Under the pieces are notes generated by a model. That model searched no databases and was not told the DNA's origin. It saw only the letters and a program-made list of their open reading frames with translations. A program made the position numbers and the translations under genes. A DNA stretch of 31,736 nt from Streptosporangiaceae bacterium (GTDB taxonomy: Bacteria > Actinomycetota > Actinomycetes > Streptosporangiales > Streptosporangiaceae), in assembly GCA_030040475.1 (NCBI GenBank), contig JASHTQ010000084.1, positions 1 through 31,736 on the forward strand, given 5' to 3'. Position 1 is the first letter of the stretch, and the number at the start of each line of letters is the position of its first letter. Shown here one piece after another: positions 24,861-31,477 of the stretch.

Positions 24861-25958
24861 GTGCCGTCAAGCAGGGAGCAAGCGCTCGACAGGTCCACGA
24901 CTGCGCCGCCTGTAGGCAGGGAAGACGACTCGCGGCGCATCACTCTCGCCATCATCGCGGCCGAGGCGGGGGTCTCGCTGCCCACCGTGTCCAAGGTCGT
25001 CAACCGGCGCCCCGATGTCGCGGCCGCCACCCGCGCCAGGGTCGAGCGGCTGCTCGACAAGCATCACTACTCGCGGGCAGGGACGCGCCGGCGGCACCGG
25101 TCAGGGCTCATCGACCTCGTGTTCAACGGCCTGGACAGCCCGTGGGCCGTCGAGATCCTGCGCGGGGTAGAGGAATGGGGCGCGGCGCACGAGACCGGCG
25201 TCGCCGTCTCGTCCGTGCGGCACGGCAACGCCCGGCCCGCCAGCTGGACAAGCGCGCTGGCCAGCCACGATACCGACGGCGTGATCCTGGTGACCTCCGA
25301 GCTCACCGAGGATCAGCTCGGCCAGCTGCGCAGCGACGGCATCCCGCTGGTCGTGGTCGACCCGGTCAACCCCCCGCCGCCCGAGCTGGTGAGTGTCGGC
25401 GCCACCAACTGGGCCGGCGGCCTGGCGGCCACCGAGCACCTGCTCAGCCTCGGGCACCGCCGGATCGCGGCCATCGCGGGACCCGAGGATTACCTGTGCA
25501 GCCGGGCCCGGCTCGACGGCTACCGGTCGGCGCTCGAGCGGGCCGGGATCCGGTTCGACCTGGCCCTGATCAGGCACGGCGACTTCTACCACGAGGGCGG
25601 ATTCCTGCGCGGCGGTGAGCTGCTCGACCTGGCTGACCGCCCGACCGCCATCTTCGCCGGCAGCGACCAGCAGGCGCTCGGCGTCTACGAGGCGGCGCGC
25701 CAGCGCGGCCTGCGGATACCGCAGGACCTGAGCGTGGTCGGCTTCGACGATCTTCCGGTGGCCCGGTGGGTCTCGCCGCCGCTGACCACGGTGCGCCAGC
25801 CGCTGGCCGAGATGGGCCGCGTCGCGGCGCAGATGCTCGGCGAGCTCATCGAGGACATGTCGCTGCGCAGCCGGCGGGTGGAGCTGTCGACCGAGCTGAT
25901 CACGCGGGAGTCCACCGGGCCCGCCGACCTCGTGGGCCGGGTGGGAACGTACCGGTGA
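24861..25958 (+). CDS. LacI-family transcriptional regulator, second of tandem pair
   Basis: Repressor of 365 aa with GTG start; GAAGG sits about 7 nt upstream. The helix-turn-helix is LAIIAAEAGVSLPTVSKVVN, then RRPDVAAATRARVERLL. Most of the effector domain matches the first copy word for word (DSPWAVEILRGVEEW, ASWTSALASH, GSDQQALGVYEAARQRG, VVGFDDLP). Differences cluster in the N-terminal tail, the hinge (HHYSRAGTRRRHRS), a Pro-rich loop (VNPPPPELVS) and the C-terminal tail. The last codons overlap the GH3 start as GTGA, so repressor and enzyme are made from one message. The pair may sense different sugars at shared operators. Confidence 0.92.
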   Translation: MPSSREQALDRSTTAPPVGREDDSRRITLAIIAAEAGVSLPTVSKVVNRRPDVAAATRARVERLLDKHHYSRAGTRRRHRSGLIDLVFNGLDSPWAVEILRGVEEWGAAHETGVAVSSVRHGNARPASWTSALASHDTDGVILVTSELTEDQLGQLRSDGIPLVVVDPVNPPPPELVSVGATNWAGGLAATEHLLSLGHRRIAAIAGPEDYLCSRARLDGYRSALERAGIRFDLALIRHGDFYHEGGFLRGGELLDLADRPTAIFAGSDQQALGVYEAARQRGLRIPQDLSVVGFDDLPVARWVSPPLTTVRQPLAEMGRVAAQMLGELIEDMSLRSRRVELSTELITRESTGPADLVGRVGTYR

Positions 25959-28297
25959 GCCATCCCTCAGTGTCCCAGCCTGGTACGGCCGTCACGCAGG
26001 TCTGGCGCGACCCGTCGCGCCCGGCCGCGGAGCGGGCCGAGGACCTGCTGGCCCGGATGACCCTGGAGGAGAAGGCCGCCCAGCTGACCAGCTTCTGGAT
26101 CGGCACCGACACGCGTGACCCGAACGTCGCCCCGATGCAGGACGGCCACGGCGCGAGCCCGCCGCCGCTGGCCGAGGTGATCCGCGACGGCCTCGGCCAG
26201 GTCACCCGGTTCTTCGGCACCCGCCCGGTAGCCCCGGACACGGCCGCCCGCGGGCTGGCCGAGCTCCAGGCCCAGATCGTCGCGGCGAGTCGCTTCGGCA
26301 TCCCCGCAGTCGCGCACGAGGAGTGCCTGACCGGCTTCTCCGCCTGGACCGCCACGGTATTCCCGACCCCGCTTGCCTGGGGCGCCTCCTTCGACCCCGG
26401 GCTGGTGCGGGACATGGCCGAGGCCATCGGGTCCAGCATGCGCGCGGTCGGCATCCACCAGGGCCTCGCGCCGGTGCTCGACGTGACCAGGGACCCGCGC
26501 TGGGGGCGGACCGAGGAGAGCATCGGCGAGGACCCCTACCTGGTCGGCTGCATCGGCACCGGCTACGTGCGCGGCCTGCAGGCTGCCGGGATCCAGGCGA
26601 CGCTGAAGCATTTCGCCGGATACTCTGCCTCCCGCGCGGGGCGCAACCTGGCCCCGGTGGCCATGGGCACGCGCGAGTTCGCGGACGTTCTCGTGCTGCC
26701 GTTCGAGATGGCGATTCGGCTCGGCGGCGCCAGGTCGGTGATGCCGTCCTACACGGACGTGGACGGCGTTCCGGTGAGCGCCGACCGCGGGCTGCTCACC
26801 GGCGTGCTGCGCGACGAACTCGGCTTTGACGGCGTTGTCGTCTCGGACTACTTCGCCATCACCTTCCTGCAGACGCAGCACGGCGTGGCCGGGACCGCGG
26901 CCGACGCCGCGGCGCTGGCCCTTGAGGCGGGCCTGGACGTGGAGCTTCCCAGCGTCTGTTGCTACGGCACGGCGCTTGTGGCCGCGGTGCGCACCGGCCA
27001 GGTGCCGCCCCAGCTCGTCGACCGGGCGGCCGGCCGGGTGCTGCGGCAGAAGCTGGAGCTCGGCCTGCTCGACCCGGGCTGGAGCGCGGCGGCCGGCGAT
27101 CCGGGCGCCGTCATCGACCTGGACCCGCCGGCTCAGCGCAACCTGGCCCGCCGCCTCGCCGAGGAATCCGTGGTCCTGCTCGCAAACCGGGACGCCTCGC
27201 TGCCGCTGCGGCCGGACGCCCGCCTTGCCGTGATCGGGCCGCTCGCCAACGATCCGCTGGCCTTCTTCGGCTGCTACAGCATGGCCCGTCACCTAGGCGG
27301 CAGGTACCCGGAGGCCGCCGAGGGCGTGGCGGTGACCACGCTCCTCGGCGCGCTGCGGGCCGAACTGCCCGAGGCGTCGATCTCGCACGTGCCCGGCTGC
27401 GACGTCCGCGGCGAGGACCGCTCCGGGTTCGCGGCCGCGGCCGAACTCGCCGGCGCCGCCGACGTCGTGCTCGCCGTGCTCGGGGACAAGGCGGGACTGT
27501 TCGGCCGCGGTACCTCTGGCGAGGGCTGCGACGCTGCCGACCTGCGGCTGCCCGGCGTGCAGGAGGACCTGCTGCAGGCGCTGGCCGATACCGGCACGCC
27601 GGTCGTCCTGGTGCTCGTAACCGGCCGCCCCTACGCAATCGGCCCGGCCGTCGGCCGCCTGGCCGCCGCGGTCCAGACGTTCTTCCCCGGCGAGGAGGGC
27701 GGCGCGGCGATCGCCGGCGTGCTGTCCGGACGGGTGGTCCCCAGCGGCCGGCTGCCGGTCGAGATGCCCAGGCTGGCAGGGGCGCAGCCATCCTCGTACC
27801 TGCGCTCCCGGCTGGCCGGCCGGCATCCGGCGAGCTCGATCGACCCGACCCCGCTGTTCGCGTTCGGCCATGGGCTGTCCTACACCGACTTCGAGTACGC
27901 CGACCTGGCCGTCGGCCCGGAGCAGATCGAGACTGACGGCACGGCAGAGATCTCCTGCACTGTGCGTAACACCGGCACCAGGCCGGGTACCGAGGTCGTC
28001 CAGCTCTACCTGAGCGACCCCGTGGCCCAGGTCGTCCGCCCGGTCCGGTGGCTGGCGGGCTTCGCCAGGGTCCCGCTCGATCCGGGGCAGGCCCGCCGGG
28101 TGACGTTCCGGCTGCACGCCGACCGCACCGCGTTCCACGGCACGGCGGGCGTGCGCGTCGTCGAACCGGGCGAGATCGGCGTGGCGGTCGGCGGCGCGTC
28201 GGATCGGCTGCCGCTGACCGGGTCGTTCACCCTGTGCGGCGCCGAGCGCATCGTCGGCGCCGGGCGGGTCCTCGACACCCCCGCCGAGATCCGCTGA
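25955..28297 (+). CDS. Beta-glycosidase, glycoside hydrolase family 3 (beta-glucosidase/beta-xylosidase type)
   Basis: Retaining exo-acting beta-glycosidase, 780 aa, without signal peptide, so cytoplasmic. The (beta/alpha)8 domain starts at ERAEDLLARMTLEEKAAQL and has LAPVLDVTRDPRWGRTEES, LKHFAGYS (Lys218-His219) and the nucleophile Asp298 in GVVVSDYF. The second alpha/beta domain carries the probable acid/base Glu523 in GTSGEGCDAADLRLPG. A C-terminal fibronectin-III-like domain (EISCTVRNTGTRPGTEVVQLYLSDP) closes the protein. KHFAGYSASRAGRNLAPV resembles BxlA-type enzymes of Streptomyces, so beta-xylosidase activity is possible. GTG 25955 overlaps the LacI stop as GTGA; longer in-frame starts lie within the LacI gene and are rejected. 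The stop lies in a 15-bp repeat. Confidence 0.93.
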   Translation: MSHPSVSQPGTAVTQVWRDPSRPAAERAEDLLARMTLEEKAAQLTSFWIGTDTRDPNVAPMQDGHGASPPPLAEVIRDGLGQVTRFFGTRPVAPDTAARGLAELQAQIVAASRFGIPAVAHEECLTGFSAWTATVFPTPLAWGASFDPGLVRDMAEAIGSSMRAVGIHQGLAPVLDVTRDPRWGRTEESIGEDPYLVGCIGTGYVRGLQAAGIQATLKHFAGYSASRAGRNLAPVAMGTREFADVLVLPFEMAIRLGGARSVMPSYTDVDGVPVSADRGLLTGVLRDELGFDGVVVSDYFAITFLQTQHGVAGTAADAAALALEAGLDVELPSVCCYGTALVAAVRTGQVPPQLVDRAAGRVLRQKLELGLLDPGWSAAAGDPGAVIDLDPPAQRNLARRLAEESVVLLANRDASLPLRPDARLAVIGPLANDPLAFFGCYSMARHLGGRYPEAAEGVAVTTLLGALRAELPEASISHVPGCDVRGEDRSGFAAAAELAGAADVVLAVLGDKAGLFGRGTSGEGCDAADLRLPGVQEDLLQALADTGTPVVLVLVTGRPYAIGPAVGRLAAAVQTFFPGEEGGAAIAGVLSGRVVPSGRLPVEMPRLAGAQPSSYLRSRLAGRHPASSIDPTPLFAFGHGLSYTDFEYADLAVGPEQIETDGTAEISCTVRNTGTRPGTEVVQLYLSDPVAQVVRPVRWLAGFARVPLDPGQARRVTFRLHADRTAFHGTAGVRVVEPGEIGVAVGGASDRLPLTGSFTLCGAERIVGAGRVLDTPAEIR

Positions 28298-28339: not shown

Positions 28340-29374
28340 TCAGTAGTGCATGCCCATCGCGGCCCGGACCTCGGTCAGCGTCGCCGCGGCGATGTCGTTC
28401 GCCCGCTCGTTGCCGTCCCGCAGCACCTGCCGGACGTAACCGAGGTCCCGCGCATACTCGGCCCGCCGCGCCCTGACCGGGGCCAGCGTCTGGTTGACCG
28501 CGGCGGTGACGGTGTCCTTGAGCGCGGCCGAGCCCCCGGCGCCGACCTCTGCGGCCACCTGCCGCGGGTCGCGGCCCAGGCACAGCGCCGCGAGCAGGAC
28601 CAGGCTGGAGACCTCGGGCCTGGCATCCGGGTCATAGGCGATGTGCCGCTGCGCATCGGTCTTCGCCGCGCGGATCAGCCGCGCCGTCTGGTCCGCGTTC
28701 GCCGACAGCGGGATGGTGTTGCCGCGGCTCTTGCTCATCTTGGTCCCGTCGGTCCCGAGCAGCAGCGGCGCCGCCGACAGCAGCGCGTCGGGCACCGGGA
28801 ACACCGGCGCGTACCTGTCGTTGAACCGCCGCGCGATCGTCCGGGTGACCTCCAGGTGCGGCAGCTGATCCTGGCCCACGGGCACCAGGTTGGCCTTGCA
28901 GAACAGGATGTCCGCGGCCTGGTGCACGGGATAGGTCAGCATCAGGCCGCTGACGGCGGACTGCCTGGAGTGCGCGATCTCGTCCTTGACCGTGGGGTTG
29001 CGGCTGAGCTCGGGCACCGAGACCAGGCTGAGGAACGGCAGCAGCAACTGGTTGAGCGCGGGCACCGCGCTGTGCGCGAAGATCGTGGCCCGGTCGAGCC
29101 CGATCGCCAGGTAGTCGAGCATCATGGCGGTGACATGCTCGTCCAGGCGCTCCGCCGTGTCCCGGTCGGTCAGCACCTGGTAGTCGGCGATCAGCACGAA
29201 GACCTCCGCGCCGAGATCGGCCAGCCTGACCCGGTTCCTCAAGGTGCCGAAATAGTGGCCGAGGTGCAGCGGCCCGGTCGGCCGGTCCCCGGTCAAGATC
29301 CGGAACCGCCCGGCGTCGGCGTCGATCATTGCCTCAAGCTCGGCCGAACGCCGCAGCGCGAGTGCGGTACTCAT
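28340..29374 (-). CDS. trpS: Tryptophanyl-tRNA synthetase, probably the auxiliary (TrpRS-II/TrpRS1) type
   Basis: Class I synthetase that charges tRNA-Trp, 344 aa, cytoplasmic. The HIGH-type motif is TGDRPTGPLHLGHYFG (about 31-46) and the KMSKS loop GTDGTKMSKSRGNTI (about 210-224). ATG 29374 is preceded by AGGAGAGG. Motif wording RPTG.LHLGH..G.L.NRV fits the auxiliary clade that includes Deinococcus TrpRS-II and Streptomyces TrpRS1; members in Streptomyces give resistance to indolmycin. Assignment to that clade is by recall of motifs, not alignment. The upstream leader encodes a peptide with two adjacent Trp codons and a terminator, so expression should rise when charged tRNA-Trp is scarce or the main synthetase is inhibited. 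The gene follows an MFS exporter. Confidence 0.93.
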   Translation of the reverse strand: MSTALALRRSAELEAMIDADAGRFRILTGDRPTGPLHLGHYFGTLRNRVRLADLGAEVFVLIADYQVLTDRDTAERLDEHVTAMMLDYLAIGLDRATIFAHSAVPALNQLLLPFLSLVSVPELSRNPTVKDEIAHSRQSAVSGLMLTYPVHQAADILFCKANLVPVGQDQLPHLEVTRTIARRFNDRYAPVFPVPDALLSAAPLLLGTDGTKMSKSRGNTIPLSANADQTARLIRAAKTDAQRHIAYDPDARPEVSSLVLLAALCLGRDPRQVAAEVGAGGSAALKDTVTAAVNQTLAPVRARRAEYARDLGYVRQVLRDGNERANDIAAATLTEVRAAMGMHY

Positions 29375-29436: not shown

Positions 29437-29487
29437 AAAAAGGCCGCCCGCCCGGACGGCCCGAACATGGATGCTACAGAGACCGCC
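29437..29487 (-). promoter_or_regulatory. trpS ribosome-mediated transcription attenuator
   Basis: Minus-strand RNA. Segment 2, GGGCGGUC (29487-29480), starts right after the leader stop. It can pair over 8 positions, two of them G-U, with segment 3, GGCCGUCC (29461-29454), as an antiterminator. Segment 3 can instead pair with segment 4, GGGCGGCC (29449-29442), over 8 positions with one G-U and a 4-nt loop, followed by five U (29441-29437): a rho-independent terminator. Within the leader end, GGCCG can pair with CGGUC of segment 2 as a weaker 1:2 helix. A ribosome stalled at the Trp codons would free segment 2 and favour read-through into trpS. Promoter position is not clear. Confidence 0.82.
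29442..29461 (-). terminator. Attenuator/intrinsic terminator ahead of trpS
   Basis: GGCCGTCC-GGGC-GGGCGGCC on the minus strand followed by TTTTT (29441-29437). It is the only hairpin with a clear U-run found in the window. It could also end MFS transcripts; its overlap with an alternative helix argues for conditional termination. Confidence 0.8.
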
Positions 29488-29556
29488 CTACCCGGCCGGC
29501 CACCAAGCACCCAGTACACAACGCATACAGATAAGCATAACAAAGATCAAAATCAT
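29488..29556 (-). CDS. trpS leader peptide with tandem Trp codons
   Basis: A 22-codon frame beginning MILIFVMLIC and ending CVLGAWWPAG, then TAG. Trp18-Trp19 are TGG TGG at 29505-29500. Its start ATG shares one base with the MFS stop (TAATG, 29558-29554), so it may be translated by reinitiation; GGGA upstream is a weak ribosome site. The hydrophobic, AT-rich first half is unlike nearby genes. Role: a sensor for charged tRNA-Trp, with no function expected for the peptide itself. ATG codons 7 and 11 are possible alternative starts; both keep the Trp pair. Confidence 0.75.
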   Translation of the reverse strand: MILIFVMLICMRCVLGAWWPAG

Positions 29557-30866
29557 TATCCCGAACGAGCCGTGGTGCTTGTGCCAGGATCCTTGCTCGG
29601 CCCCGTGGCGGGTCCTCCGCGTTCCGGCTCGGCCGGCTTGGCCGGCTCGGCCACTGCCGATCCGGGTGGTGCCGCGCGGATCGCCCGCCCAGGCCCGGTC
29701 AGCAGGTAGACCGCGGCGGCGCACAGTTCGGTGCCGGCCGCGACCAGCAGGCAGGCGGTCACCGAACGCCCGGCCAGCGGCCCGGCGAGCGCCGCGCCGG
29801 CCGCCAGGCCGGCGATCTTCAGGCTCGCCGCCGTGGTGTAGATCTGCCCTCGCATCTGCTCGGGGGTCTCCCGGTGCCGGATCGCGAACAGCGCGGTCAG
29901 CTGCGGTCCCTCGCCGCCGCCGCCGGCGGCGACCGCGGCCATCGTGAGCCAGCCCGGCGCGACGGCCGCCGCTGCCATGCTTGCCCCGATCAGCAGCGTG
30001 CTGCCGAGGACCCGGACGTCGGGCTCGCCGCGCCACGGGCGGCGGGCCAGGATCGCGTTGGCGACGAGCGAGGCGGCCGCCATCGCGCTGATCAGCAGCG
30101 CGCCGCGTGCCGACCCGCCGAGCCGCTCAGCCCCGAGCACCGGGCAGCAGACGAGGAGCATCCCGATCCCCACGTAGGACACCGCCGACGTCGCGGTGGC
30201 CCGCAGCAGCCTGCGCCGCCGCACGATCGCCGCGAAACCTGCCACGAAGGGCGCAGGGGGCGCAGGGGGCGCAGGACCGCCGGCGGCCATCGGCGGGTAG
30301 CGCGCCAGCGACCATGCCGCCGGCACGGCCAGGGCCACAAGTCCCGCGGCCGCAAGGACCGCGACCCGGGTCCCGAGCCCGGCGGCGATCACCGCCGCGA
30401 GGGCCGGACCGGCCAGGCTGGCCGCGCTGTAGCTGAGCGCGTCCAGCGCCGAGCCCCTGGCCAGCTCCGCTCCGGTCACCAGGCGGGGAAGCTGCGCCGT
30501 CCAGCCTCCCGCCACCGCCGGGTTGAACACCCCGGTGACCAGCGCAAGCGCCACGACAACCGGCATCGGCAGCCGGCCGAGCACGGCCGAGATGACGACG
30601 ATGCCCAGCGCGTAGGCGCCAAGCGTCCCGCCGAGCAGCCTGGCCGGCCGCCTGCTGCGGTCGAGCAGCGCGCCGAAGGCGGGGCCGCCCGCCGCCGCCG
30701 CGACGGTCAGGCTTGCGAGCAGCTCAGACCCGGCCGCCGGCCCGCGCGTCACCGCGAAGCCGAGCAGCAGCAGCGCCGGCCCCGACATCTCGTCCCCCGC
30801 CCTGGCCGCCGCCGCGCCCCCGAGATACCTCCACAGCTTGCGCCACAGGACGTAACGAGAATCCAT
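29556..30866 (-). CDS. MFS transporter (multidrug exporter-like)
   Basis: Membrane protein of 436 aa with about 12 hydrophobic segments in two halves separated by a Pro/Ala-rich loop near residues 196-206 (GGPAPPAPPAPF). The loop after helix 2 is GALLDRSRRPARLLGG, the MFS motif A position (G-x-x-x-D-R). The C-terminal tail is disordered and rich in Ala, Glu, Pro and Gly. It resembles small-molecule efflux members of the MFS_1 type found next to regulators; the substrate is unknown. The start is probably leaderless: TAACGT lies 7 nt before ATG 30866. It is divergent from a CGNR regulator only 23 bp away, which likely controls it, and its stop overlaps the trpS leader start. Confidence 0.85.
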   Translation of the reverse strand: MDSRYVLWRKLWRYLGGAAAARAGDEMSGPALLLLGFAVTRGPAAGSELLASLTVAAAAGGPAFGALLDRSRRPARLLGGTLGAYALGIVVISAVLGRLPMPVVVALALVTGVFNPAVAGGWTAQLPRLVTGAELARGSALDALSYSAASLAGPALAAVIAAGLGTRVAVLAAAGLVALAVPAAWSLARYPPMAAGGPAPPAPPAPFVAGFAAIVRRRRLLRATATSAVSYVGIGMLLVCCPVLGAERLGGSARGALLISAMAAASLVANAILARRPWRGEPDVRVLGSTLLIGASMAAAAVAPGWLTMAAVAAGGGGEGPQLTALFAIRHRETPEQMRGQIYTTAASLKIAGLAAGAALAGPLAGRSVTACLLVAAGTELCAAAVYLLTGPGRAIRAAPPGSAVAEPAKPAEPERGGPATGPSKDPGTSTTARSG

Positions 30867-30882
30867 GAAAACACGTTACAGT
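30852..30882. promoter_or_regulatory. Overlapping divergent promoters with inverted repeat (MFS/CGNR)
   Basis: Plus-strand TACAGT (30877-30882) lies 7 nt before ATG 30890. Minus-strand TAACGT (30878-30873) lies 6 nt before ATG 30866. Both fit a -10 element placed for leaderless transcripts and they overlap by two bases, so the two promoters exclude each other. An inverted repeat GTAACG (30852-30857)/CGTTAC (30874-30879) covers the region and may be the regulator's site. Inferred from sequence form. Confidence 0.45.
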
Positions 30883-30889
30883 GTCGCGT

Positions 30890-31477
30890 ATGGAACGCCC
30901 GAAGGGTTTTCTCGGCGGCAGCGTTCACGACGCCGCGCTGCGCACGGCCGACATCCTCGCCGTCCTGATCCCCTGGCCCGGCAACCGCCTCGCGCCGGGC
31001 ACGGCGGCGGAGCGCGGCCGCCTCATCGAGGTGCTGCGCGACTACGGCGAATCCGAGGCCGCCGACATCTCACCTGCCGATCTCGCCGACCTCCGCCGCG
31101 CCGCCGCCAGGCTGCGTCCCGTATTCGCGGCCGCCGACGCCGCAACCGCCGCAACCCGGATCAACGCCCTGCTCGCCGAGTGCGCCCATCCCCCCAGGCT
31201 GACCGCCCACGGCGGCACGTCCGCCTGGCACCTGCACGTCGACAGCAGCGACGACGCCCCCTGGTCCGAGTGGTTCCTCACCTCATCCTGCCTGGCCCTA
31301 GCCGTCCTGCTGGCCGAGCGTCAGGCCCCGCCCGCCGCCTTCTGCGCCTCCCCGTCCTGCGGCCGCCCCTTCGTCAACGTCGGCCGCGGCCCCGCCCGCC
31401 GCTACTGCTCCCCGGCCTGCGGCACCCGCGAACGCGTCGCCGCCCACCGCGCCGCGATCGGCGCCGTGAAAGGCTAG
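30890..31477 (+). CDS. CGNR zinc-finger protein (ABATE-type putative regulator)
   Basis: A 195-aa cytoplasmic protein with an N-terminal stress-response-type (ABATE) alpha-helical domain, starting FLGGSVHDAALRTADIL, and a C-terminal CGNR zinc finger. The four metal cysteines are Cys152, Cys157, Cys173 and Cys177 in FCASPSCGRPFVN and RRYCSPACGTRERV. CGNR reads CGRP here. Family members are presumed DNA-binding regulators. GTG 30881 is an alternative start, but ATG 30890 with a leaderless -10 is preferred. It is divergent from the MFS exporter, a common pairing of regulator and target. Its effector is unknown. Confidence 0.85.
   Translation: MERPKGFLGGSVHDAALRTADILAVLIPWPGNRLAPGTAAERGRLIEVLRDYGESEAADISPADLADLRRAAARLRPVFAAADAATAATRINALLAECAHPPRLTAHGGTSAWHLHVDSSDDAPWSEWFLTSSCLALAVLLAERQAPPAAFCASPSCGRPFVNVGRGPARRYCSPACGTRERVAAHRAAIGAVKG

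Follow-up and report, generated by a model that had tools for sequence, protein, structure and literature searches.

Does the short reading frame with two adjacent Trp codons that lies between an MFS transporter gene and trpS on the minus strand of this Streptosporangiaceae contig control the synthetase gene, and if so, where does the leader begin and what kind of tryptophanyl-tRNA synthetase (TrpRS) does it serve? The window analysed here is the whole stretch of 31,736 nt from contig JASHTQ010000084.1. We conclude that the Trp-codon attenuator upstream of the auxiliary trpS is real, and we favour ribosome-mediated transcription attenuation of this TrpRS gene, with a leader starting at or near position 29526, at a probability of roughly 0.92. 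A preliminary description made from the letters alone had already proposed an auxiliary-type trpS under Trp-codon attenuation, and this is now well supported by the match to a covariance model built on relatives, by the helices, and by simulated ribosome stalls. Leader, helices, terminator and their conservation are observed in sequence, folding and comparison, as collected in Table 1 and set out below.

Table 1. Features of the trpS attenuator and its surroundings in the window
Feature	Coordinates	Strand	Basis or remark
-10-like hexamer TATGCT	29534..29539	minus	7 nt upstream of ATG 29526
Leader peptide ORF, 12 codons + TAG, MRCVLGAWWPAG	29488..29526	minus	sequence; covariance model aligns from ATG 29526
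TAG stop codon of leader	29490-29488	minus	
Regulatory TGG TGG codons	29500..29505	minus	sequence
Outer arm of 1:2 hairpin, inside leader codons	29506..29513	minus	pairs with 29475-29468; folding
Outer helix 3' side, 1:2 hairpin	29468..29475	minus	folding, covariation in relatives
Segment 1, inner anti-antiterminator arm	29497..29501	minus	pairs with 29485-29481
Segment 2, antiterminator 5' arm	29481..29488	minus	pairs with 29461-29454
Intrinsic terminator hairpin (segments 3:4), 9 pairs, then U run	29441..29462	minus	folding
trpS, 344 aa, motifs GDRPTG / HLGH / KMSKS	28340..29374	minus	ORF, profiles, tree
MFS transporter gene	29556..30866	minus	stop codon ends 16 nt before -10

The in-frame ORF 29556-29488 that had been described, ending in ...GAWWPAG* with TGG TGG at 29505-29500, is present on the minus strand, and so is the terminator, a hairpin at 29462-29441 with its run of U. 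The antiterminator held in its pairing and in its 3' arm (29461-29454), but its 5' arm had been placed off by one and is 29488-29481. A purine-rich stretch lies between the U run and the trpS ATG. Folding of the 91-nt element 29526-29436 (minus strand) gave -45.8 kcal/mol and z = -3.14, a value equalled by 1 of 200 shuffles; for the longer 182-nt stretch that had been put forward for a folding check, the result was weak (z = -1.67, 13 of 200 shuffles equally good). Furthermore, the window has a single instance of a short ORF with TGG TGG ahead of a terminator-like hairpin, and 100 dinucleotide shuffles have none, whereas between 28000 and 31736 one terminator-like site was seen where 0.8 are expected by chance. 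Thus the terminator is not significant by itself, and the weight of the case rests on the comparative evidence.

As relatives we took the best 80 of at least 544 confirmed loci, picked by TrpRS similarity only. A Trp leader precedes trpS in 77 of these best 80, with TGG TGG in 76 and a single TGG in one (L020). Scanning revealed 75 of these leaders; L020 was recognised by eye, and L023 by the covariance model, since the start of this leader, 570 nt ahead of the TrpRS match, lies beyond the 450 nt that the scan covered. Neither scan nor covariance model detected a leader in the remaining three (L037, L044, L071), the best score for L037 being 12.8 bits (E 0.55). A GVKPTG-type TrpRS with a WW leader (L105) is present in the same genome as L037. 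The covariance model (R1) was built from 37 of 71 aligned relatives, with the window, L020, L015 and L023 left out, and its E-values are rough by the tool's own statement. It matched the window at full length at 29526-29436 on the minus strand, with 35.2 bits and E 2.2e-6; this was the sole significant match in the window, the next-best having E 0.11. It likewise recovered L023 (97.5 bits), L020 (44.5 bits, E 5.6e-8) and L015 (29.2 bits, E 1.4e-4). The locus closest to the window among the best 80, L020, has a TrpRS 84% identical and the leader MQQAAQMWQAV, with one Trp codon (L020:2849-2933). For the structural comparison, the window and 71 relatives were aligned (alignment A1, 72 sequences), leaving out the identical copies L061 and L069, the longer leaders L062, L076 and L079, L023, which was found later, and the three leader-less loci. 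At least five of the 72 aligned sequences (L002, L004, L033, L048 and L049) have poor U runs. Conservation in relatives of the Trp pair and of the alternative helices, terminator included, which the preliminary description had named as a check, is thus borne out, and leaders of the window type occur in at least six actinomycete families.

Where the leader begins is answered differently from before. The working leader probably comprises 12 codons and starts at the transcript 5' end, as judged from its sequence surroundings: TAnnnT stands 5-7 nt upstream of the start codon in all 78 leaders considered (75 scanned relatives, the window, L020 and L023, the latter two judged by inspection), and in 1.9% of a matched shuffle control that allowed any in-frame start at spacing 5-7. 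An earlier shuffle control, which allowed a spacing of 5-8 and took a single start codon from each sequence, had given 1.4%; we prefer 1.9% as the better matched. Of the 75 relatives, 61 have a spacing of 6, 13 a spacing of 7 and one a spacing of 5, and the first Trp is preceded by 8 codons in 71, 7 in one, 12 in two and 15 in one; the window shows a spacing of 7 and has 7 codons ahead of its first Trp. A -10 box stands at such a distance when transcription starts on the start codon itself. The trinucleotide TGT directly before TATGCT makes it an extended -10 by the usual consensus, and a clear -35 was not found for this promoter candidate on the minus strand of the window. In S. lividans, whose -10 consensus is given as TAnnnT, the leader trpL2 was reported in 2021 to be leaderless (PMC8079986).

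The preliminary description had instead read a 22-codon leader. In that reading the attenuator would be the same, with the ORF from 29556 as its leader, carried on a longer transcript or coupled to the MFS stop. The frame is indeed open, the MFS stop and ATG 29556 share one base in a TAATG overlap, the MFS-like frame of L020 likewise stops just upstream of its leader (by eye), and in 23 of the 75 relatives another ATG or GTG lies in frame ahead of the point where the short leader starts. Nevertheless, we consider the longer leader unlikely: the promoter-like motif precedes the shorter ORF throughout, the internal ATG 29526 is the one that matches the relatives and the one at which the covariance model begins, in 52 of the 75 relatives the 25 codons leading up to the first Trp contain no other start in frame, and trpL2 provides a leaderless precedent. 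The codons ahead of ATG 29526 fall on the likely promoter, so that the hydrophobic N-terminal half noted earlier very probably represents promoter DNA mistaken for coding sequence, given where TAnnnT is placed; overlap of the extra ten codons, MILIFVMLIC, with the promoter explains their AT-rich and hydrophobic look. The case cautions that promoter DNA can be misread as leader codons.

Starting from the shorter leader, three competing helices are seen in the 72 aligned sequences: an inner 1:2 helix, a 2:3 antiterminator and an outer helix between leader codons 5-6 and the spacer. The outer helix, which RNAalifold proposed unprompted, is 94.4% paired with both-sided changes at all 5 pairs, and its covariation score was reached by none of 500 shuffles. 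The inner 1:2 helix is 94.6% paired in the 72 sequences, with both-sided changes at 4 of 8 pairs and one covariation measure reached by 34 of 500 shuffles. The 2:3 helix is 98.6% paired, with a both-sided change at 1 of 8 pairs (in 16 sequences), and two of its five covariation measures, which count the pairs with both-sided changes and the types of pair, do not stand out, being reached by 494 and 500 of 500 shuffles. Kinship alone can lift sequences above such shuffles without any structure. When cognate arms were compared with non-cognate ones over the whole set, the outer helix was favoured (mean -12.8 versus -9.8 kcal/mol; on average 80% of non-cognate combinations weaker), whereas the test says little for 1:2 (59%) and 2:3 (51%), where the sequences hardly vary. 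Taken by itself, the window had weaker non-cognate partners in 85% of cases for 2:3, in 61% for the outer helix and in only 15% for inner 1:2. Most leaders read Cys at a codon in the covarying helix (A1 columns 14-18 and 69-73), and as the outer helix covers this codon, pairing may explain its conservation.

The window misfits the consensus columns of the 1:2, 2:3 and outer helices unless it is shifted; it retains the four-segment design in a shifted register, with the outer and inner pairings of Table 1. Its antiterminator and terminator are mutually exclusive. With a simulated ribosome stalled with either W1 or W2 in the A site on RNA lacking the terminator 3' arm, the antiterminator formed in six of six folds (-15.5 kcal/mol in five, -11.6 in one), and with the ribosome at the stop codon the terminator formed in three of three. 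On full-length RNA, the same stalls gave the antiterminator in four of six and the terminator in the other two (W1 when 11 nt were covered, W2 when 15 nt were), so the order of synthesis must matter.

We infer the following course of events. RNA polymerase would start at or very near A29526, and a ribosome would initiate on the 5'-terminal AUG and read 12 codons. With ample charged tRNA-Trp, it would reach the stop codon and mask segment 2, leaving the 3:4 terminator to form and trpS off. If charged tRNA-Trp were scarce, whether Trp was limiting or the main TrpRS inhibited, the ribosome would stall at either UGG and cover segment 1, the 2:3 antiterminator would form, and polymerase would proceed into trpS. 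Without any ribosome, the long 1:2 hairpin, together with the outer helix through the leader codons, would keep the gene off by default.

Two further explanations of the locus have to be weighed against ribosome-mediated attenuation. The hairpin might be the plain terminator of the MFS gene, which ends just upstream on the same strand, with the Trp codons a coincidence; a lone terminator-like site is, as noted, expected there about 0.8 times. This we hold to be very improbable, as the leader recurs in 77 of the best 80 relatives while an MFS homolog stands beside trpS only in L020, in flanks of 3 kb for most loci and less than 2 kb in 9 of the 80, and as leader and hairpin never came together in the shuffles. 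Still more improbable is a T-box or a protein-bound leader that no ribosome reads: in Firmicutes many synthetase genes are indeed under T-box control, and Actinobacteria have unusual T-boxes before ileS (PMC1262725), but the tandem TGG and the overlapping helices suit ribosome stalling, and no Rfam family, Trp leader and T-box included, reaches its gathering score anywhere in the window.

The gene under this control encodes a TrpRS by its match to TIGR00233 trpS (222.9 bits, cut-off 176.75) and to Pfam tRNA-synt_1b. At least one other TrpRS match, 31-37% identical, is found in each of the 12 genomes first examined. In a tree of 39 TrpRS proteins (15 window-type and 24 others), the closest companions of the window enzyme are L020 (97/94) and L015 (90/96), within a clade that comprises the 15 GDRPTG proteins and has 100/100 support; the other 24 are housekeeping-type enzymes, L106, L107 and the GVKPTG type found behind the S. 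lividans-type trpL2 leader, the housekeeping-type placement of L102 being unsure on its very long branch. The leaders of L020 and L015 are also unusual. Among solved structures, 1yi8 and 2a4m, both presumably from Deinococcus, come closest, and 2a4m is named TrpRS II; by sequence, the window enzyme is of the TrpRS II-like (GDRPTG) type. The Arg and Gln columns are present in all 81 window-type proteins, the Gln standing where the 18 housekeeping-type enzymes have a His, which on our own reading we take to be His43 of the Bacillus enzyme. Furthermore, six of six genomes that we assume to be of S. griseus-like species have two TrpRS matches, 77-80% and 35-37% identical to that of the window, and three of the latter placed in the tree fall with the housekeeping enzymes. 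In Bacillus TrpRS, exchange of His43 for Asn gives indolmycin resistance (PMC4899734), and S. griseus has two TrpRS genes, of which SGR_3809 is indolmycin-resistant (PMC6804068); the passages of the latter paper on this gene mention no leader. As each of the six genomes holds one window-type TrpRS and one that is 35-37% identical, SGR_3809 is probably window-type. The window TrpRS is thus probably of the SGR_3809 type by sequence and, by analogy, might plausibly be indolmycin-resistant.

How does this attenuator relate to those already known? In mainly open literature, the relevant reports on synthetase attenuation in Actinobacteria were PMC1262725 (2005) and PMC8079986 (2021). In the former, Seliverstov predicted attenuators for trp operons as well as for some trpS genes of Streptomyces; these Corynebacterium and Streptomyces elements, and the S. 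avermitilis trpS2 candidate, share with the window a Trp-codon leader, alternative hairpins and a GC-rich terminator, whereas the trp operon attenuators, compared by description, control biosynthesis genes (PMC1262725). The trpL2-trpS locus of S. lividans TK24 resembles the window in its short Trp leader, reported leaderless there and probably leaderless here, its competing hairpins and its second TrpRS; trpL2 (MMTRTCTQLWRAA), however, has one Trp codon against two, and PMC8079986 reports no uridine-enriched sequence after it, in contrast to the U run of the window. The window-type covariance model matches such loci (L116-L118) weakly (25.8 bits, E 7.4e-4). Orthology to the TrpRS behind them was considered and rejected, identity being 35-36% and a 100/100 branch lying between. 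That enzyme would be of the SCO3334/TrpRS1 kind, and SCO3334 is under WblC control (PMC7157823). The S. coelicolor parallel drawn earlier therefore stands for the mechanism and falls for orthology, the window TrpRS belonging to a separate clade. Leaders before trpS genes of the GDRPTG type in other actinomycetes, for instance L013 (MHLSSCLSWWRSS) and L014 (MTSVPCRNWWRSS), agree with the window in gene type, in the four-segment RNA, in near-identical length and in -10 spacing; in the window, peptide, loop and outer-helix register have diverged. The window attenuator is thus a diverged, probably leaderless addition to the published leaderless Trp attenuators before trpS.

Other TrpRS lineages were scanned for leaders at 15 loci (L093-L107) up to 600 nt upstream, leaving out the weak matches L108-L110. 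WW leaders preceded by TAnnnT were found upstream of trpS at L105 (MTTRALTLDLRWWAA), L106 (VRAMLNMWWAVRGRPSIVVH) and L107 (MHILDLWWCRSRRP), and no such Trp leader at the other 12 of these 15. Attenuation thus seems to be shared by two or more auxiliary lineages that are only distantly related.

The surroundings of the locus also hold, on the plus strand, a LacI-like regulator followed by a glycoside-hydrolase-like gene at 24861-28297 (both by eye) and a CGNR zinc-finger gene (Pfam) at 30881-31477. We tentatively raise the idea, which we think more doubtful than probable, that two or more auxiliary TrpRS lineages of actinomycetes, only distantly related to each other, are guarded by leaderless Trp attenuators, that the Cys codon of the GDRPTG lineage is kept by pairing in an extended 1:2 hairpin rather than by the peptide, and that in the subclade of the window, where the attenuated TrpRS lies behind an MFS transporter, the two could form a self-protection pair against a natural TrpRS inhibitor.

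At this locus a known type of regulator is met again in a second auxiliary TrpRS lineage, in the form of an RNA element unmatched by Rfam. The transcript probably begins with the AUG of the leader. Attenuation here lends itself readily to testing, and a spare tryptophan-charging enzyme appears to be switched on when charged tRNA-Trp runs low.
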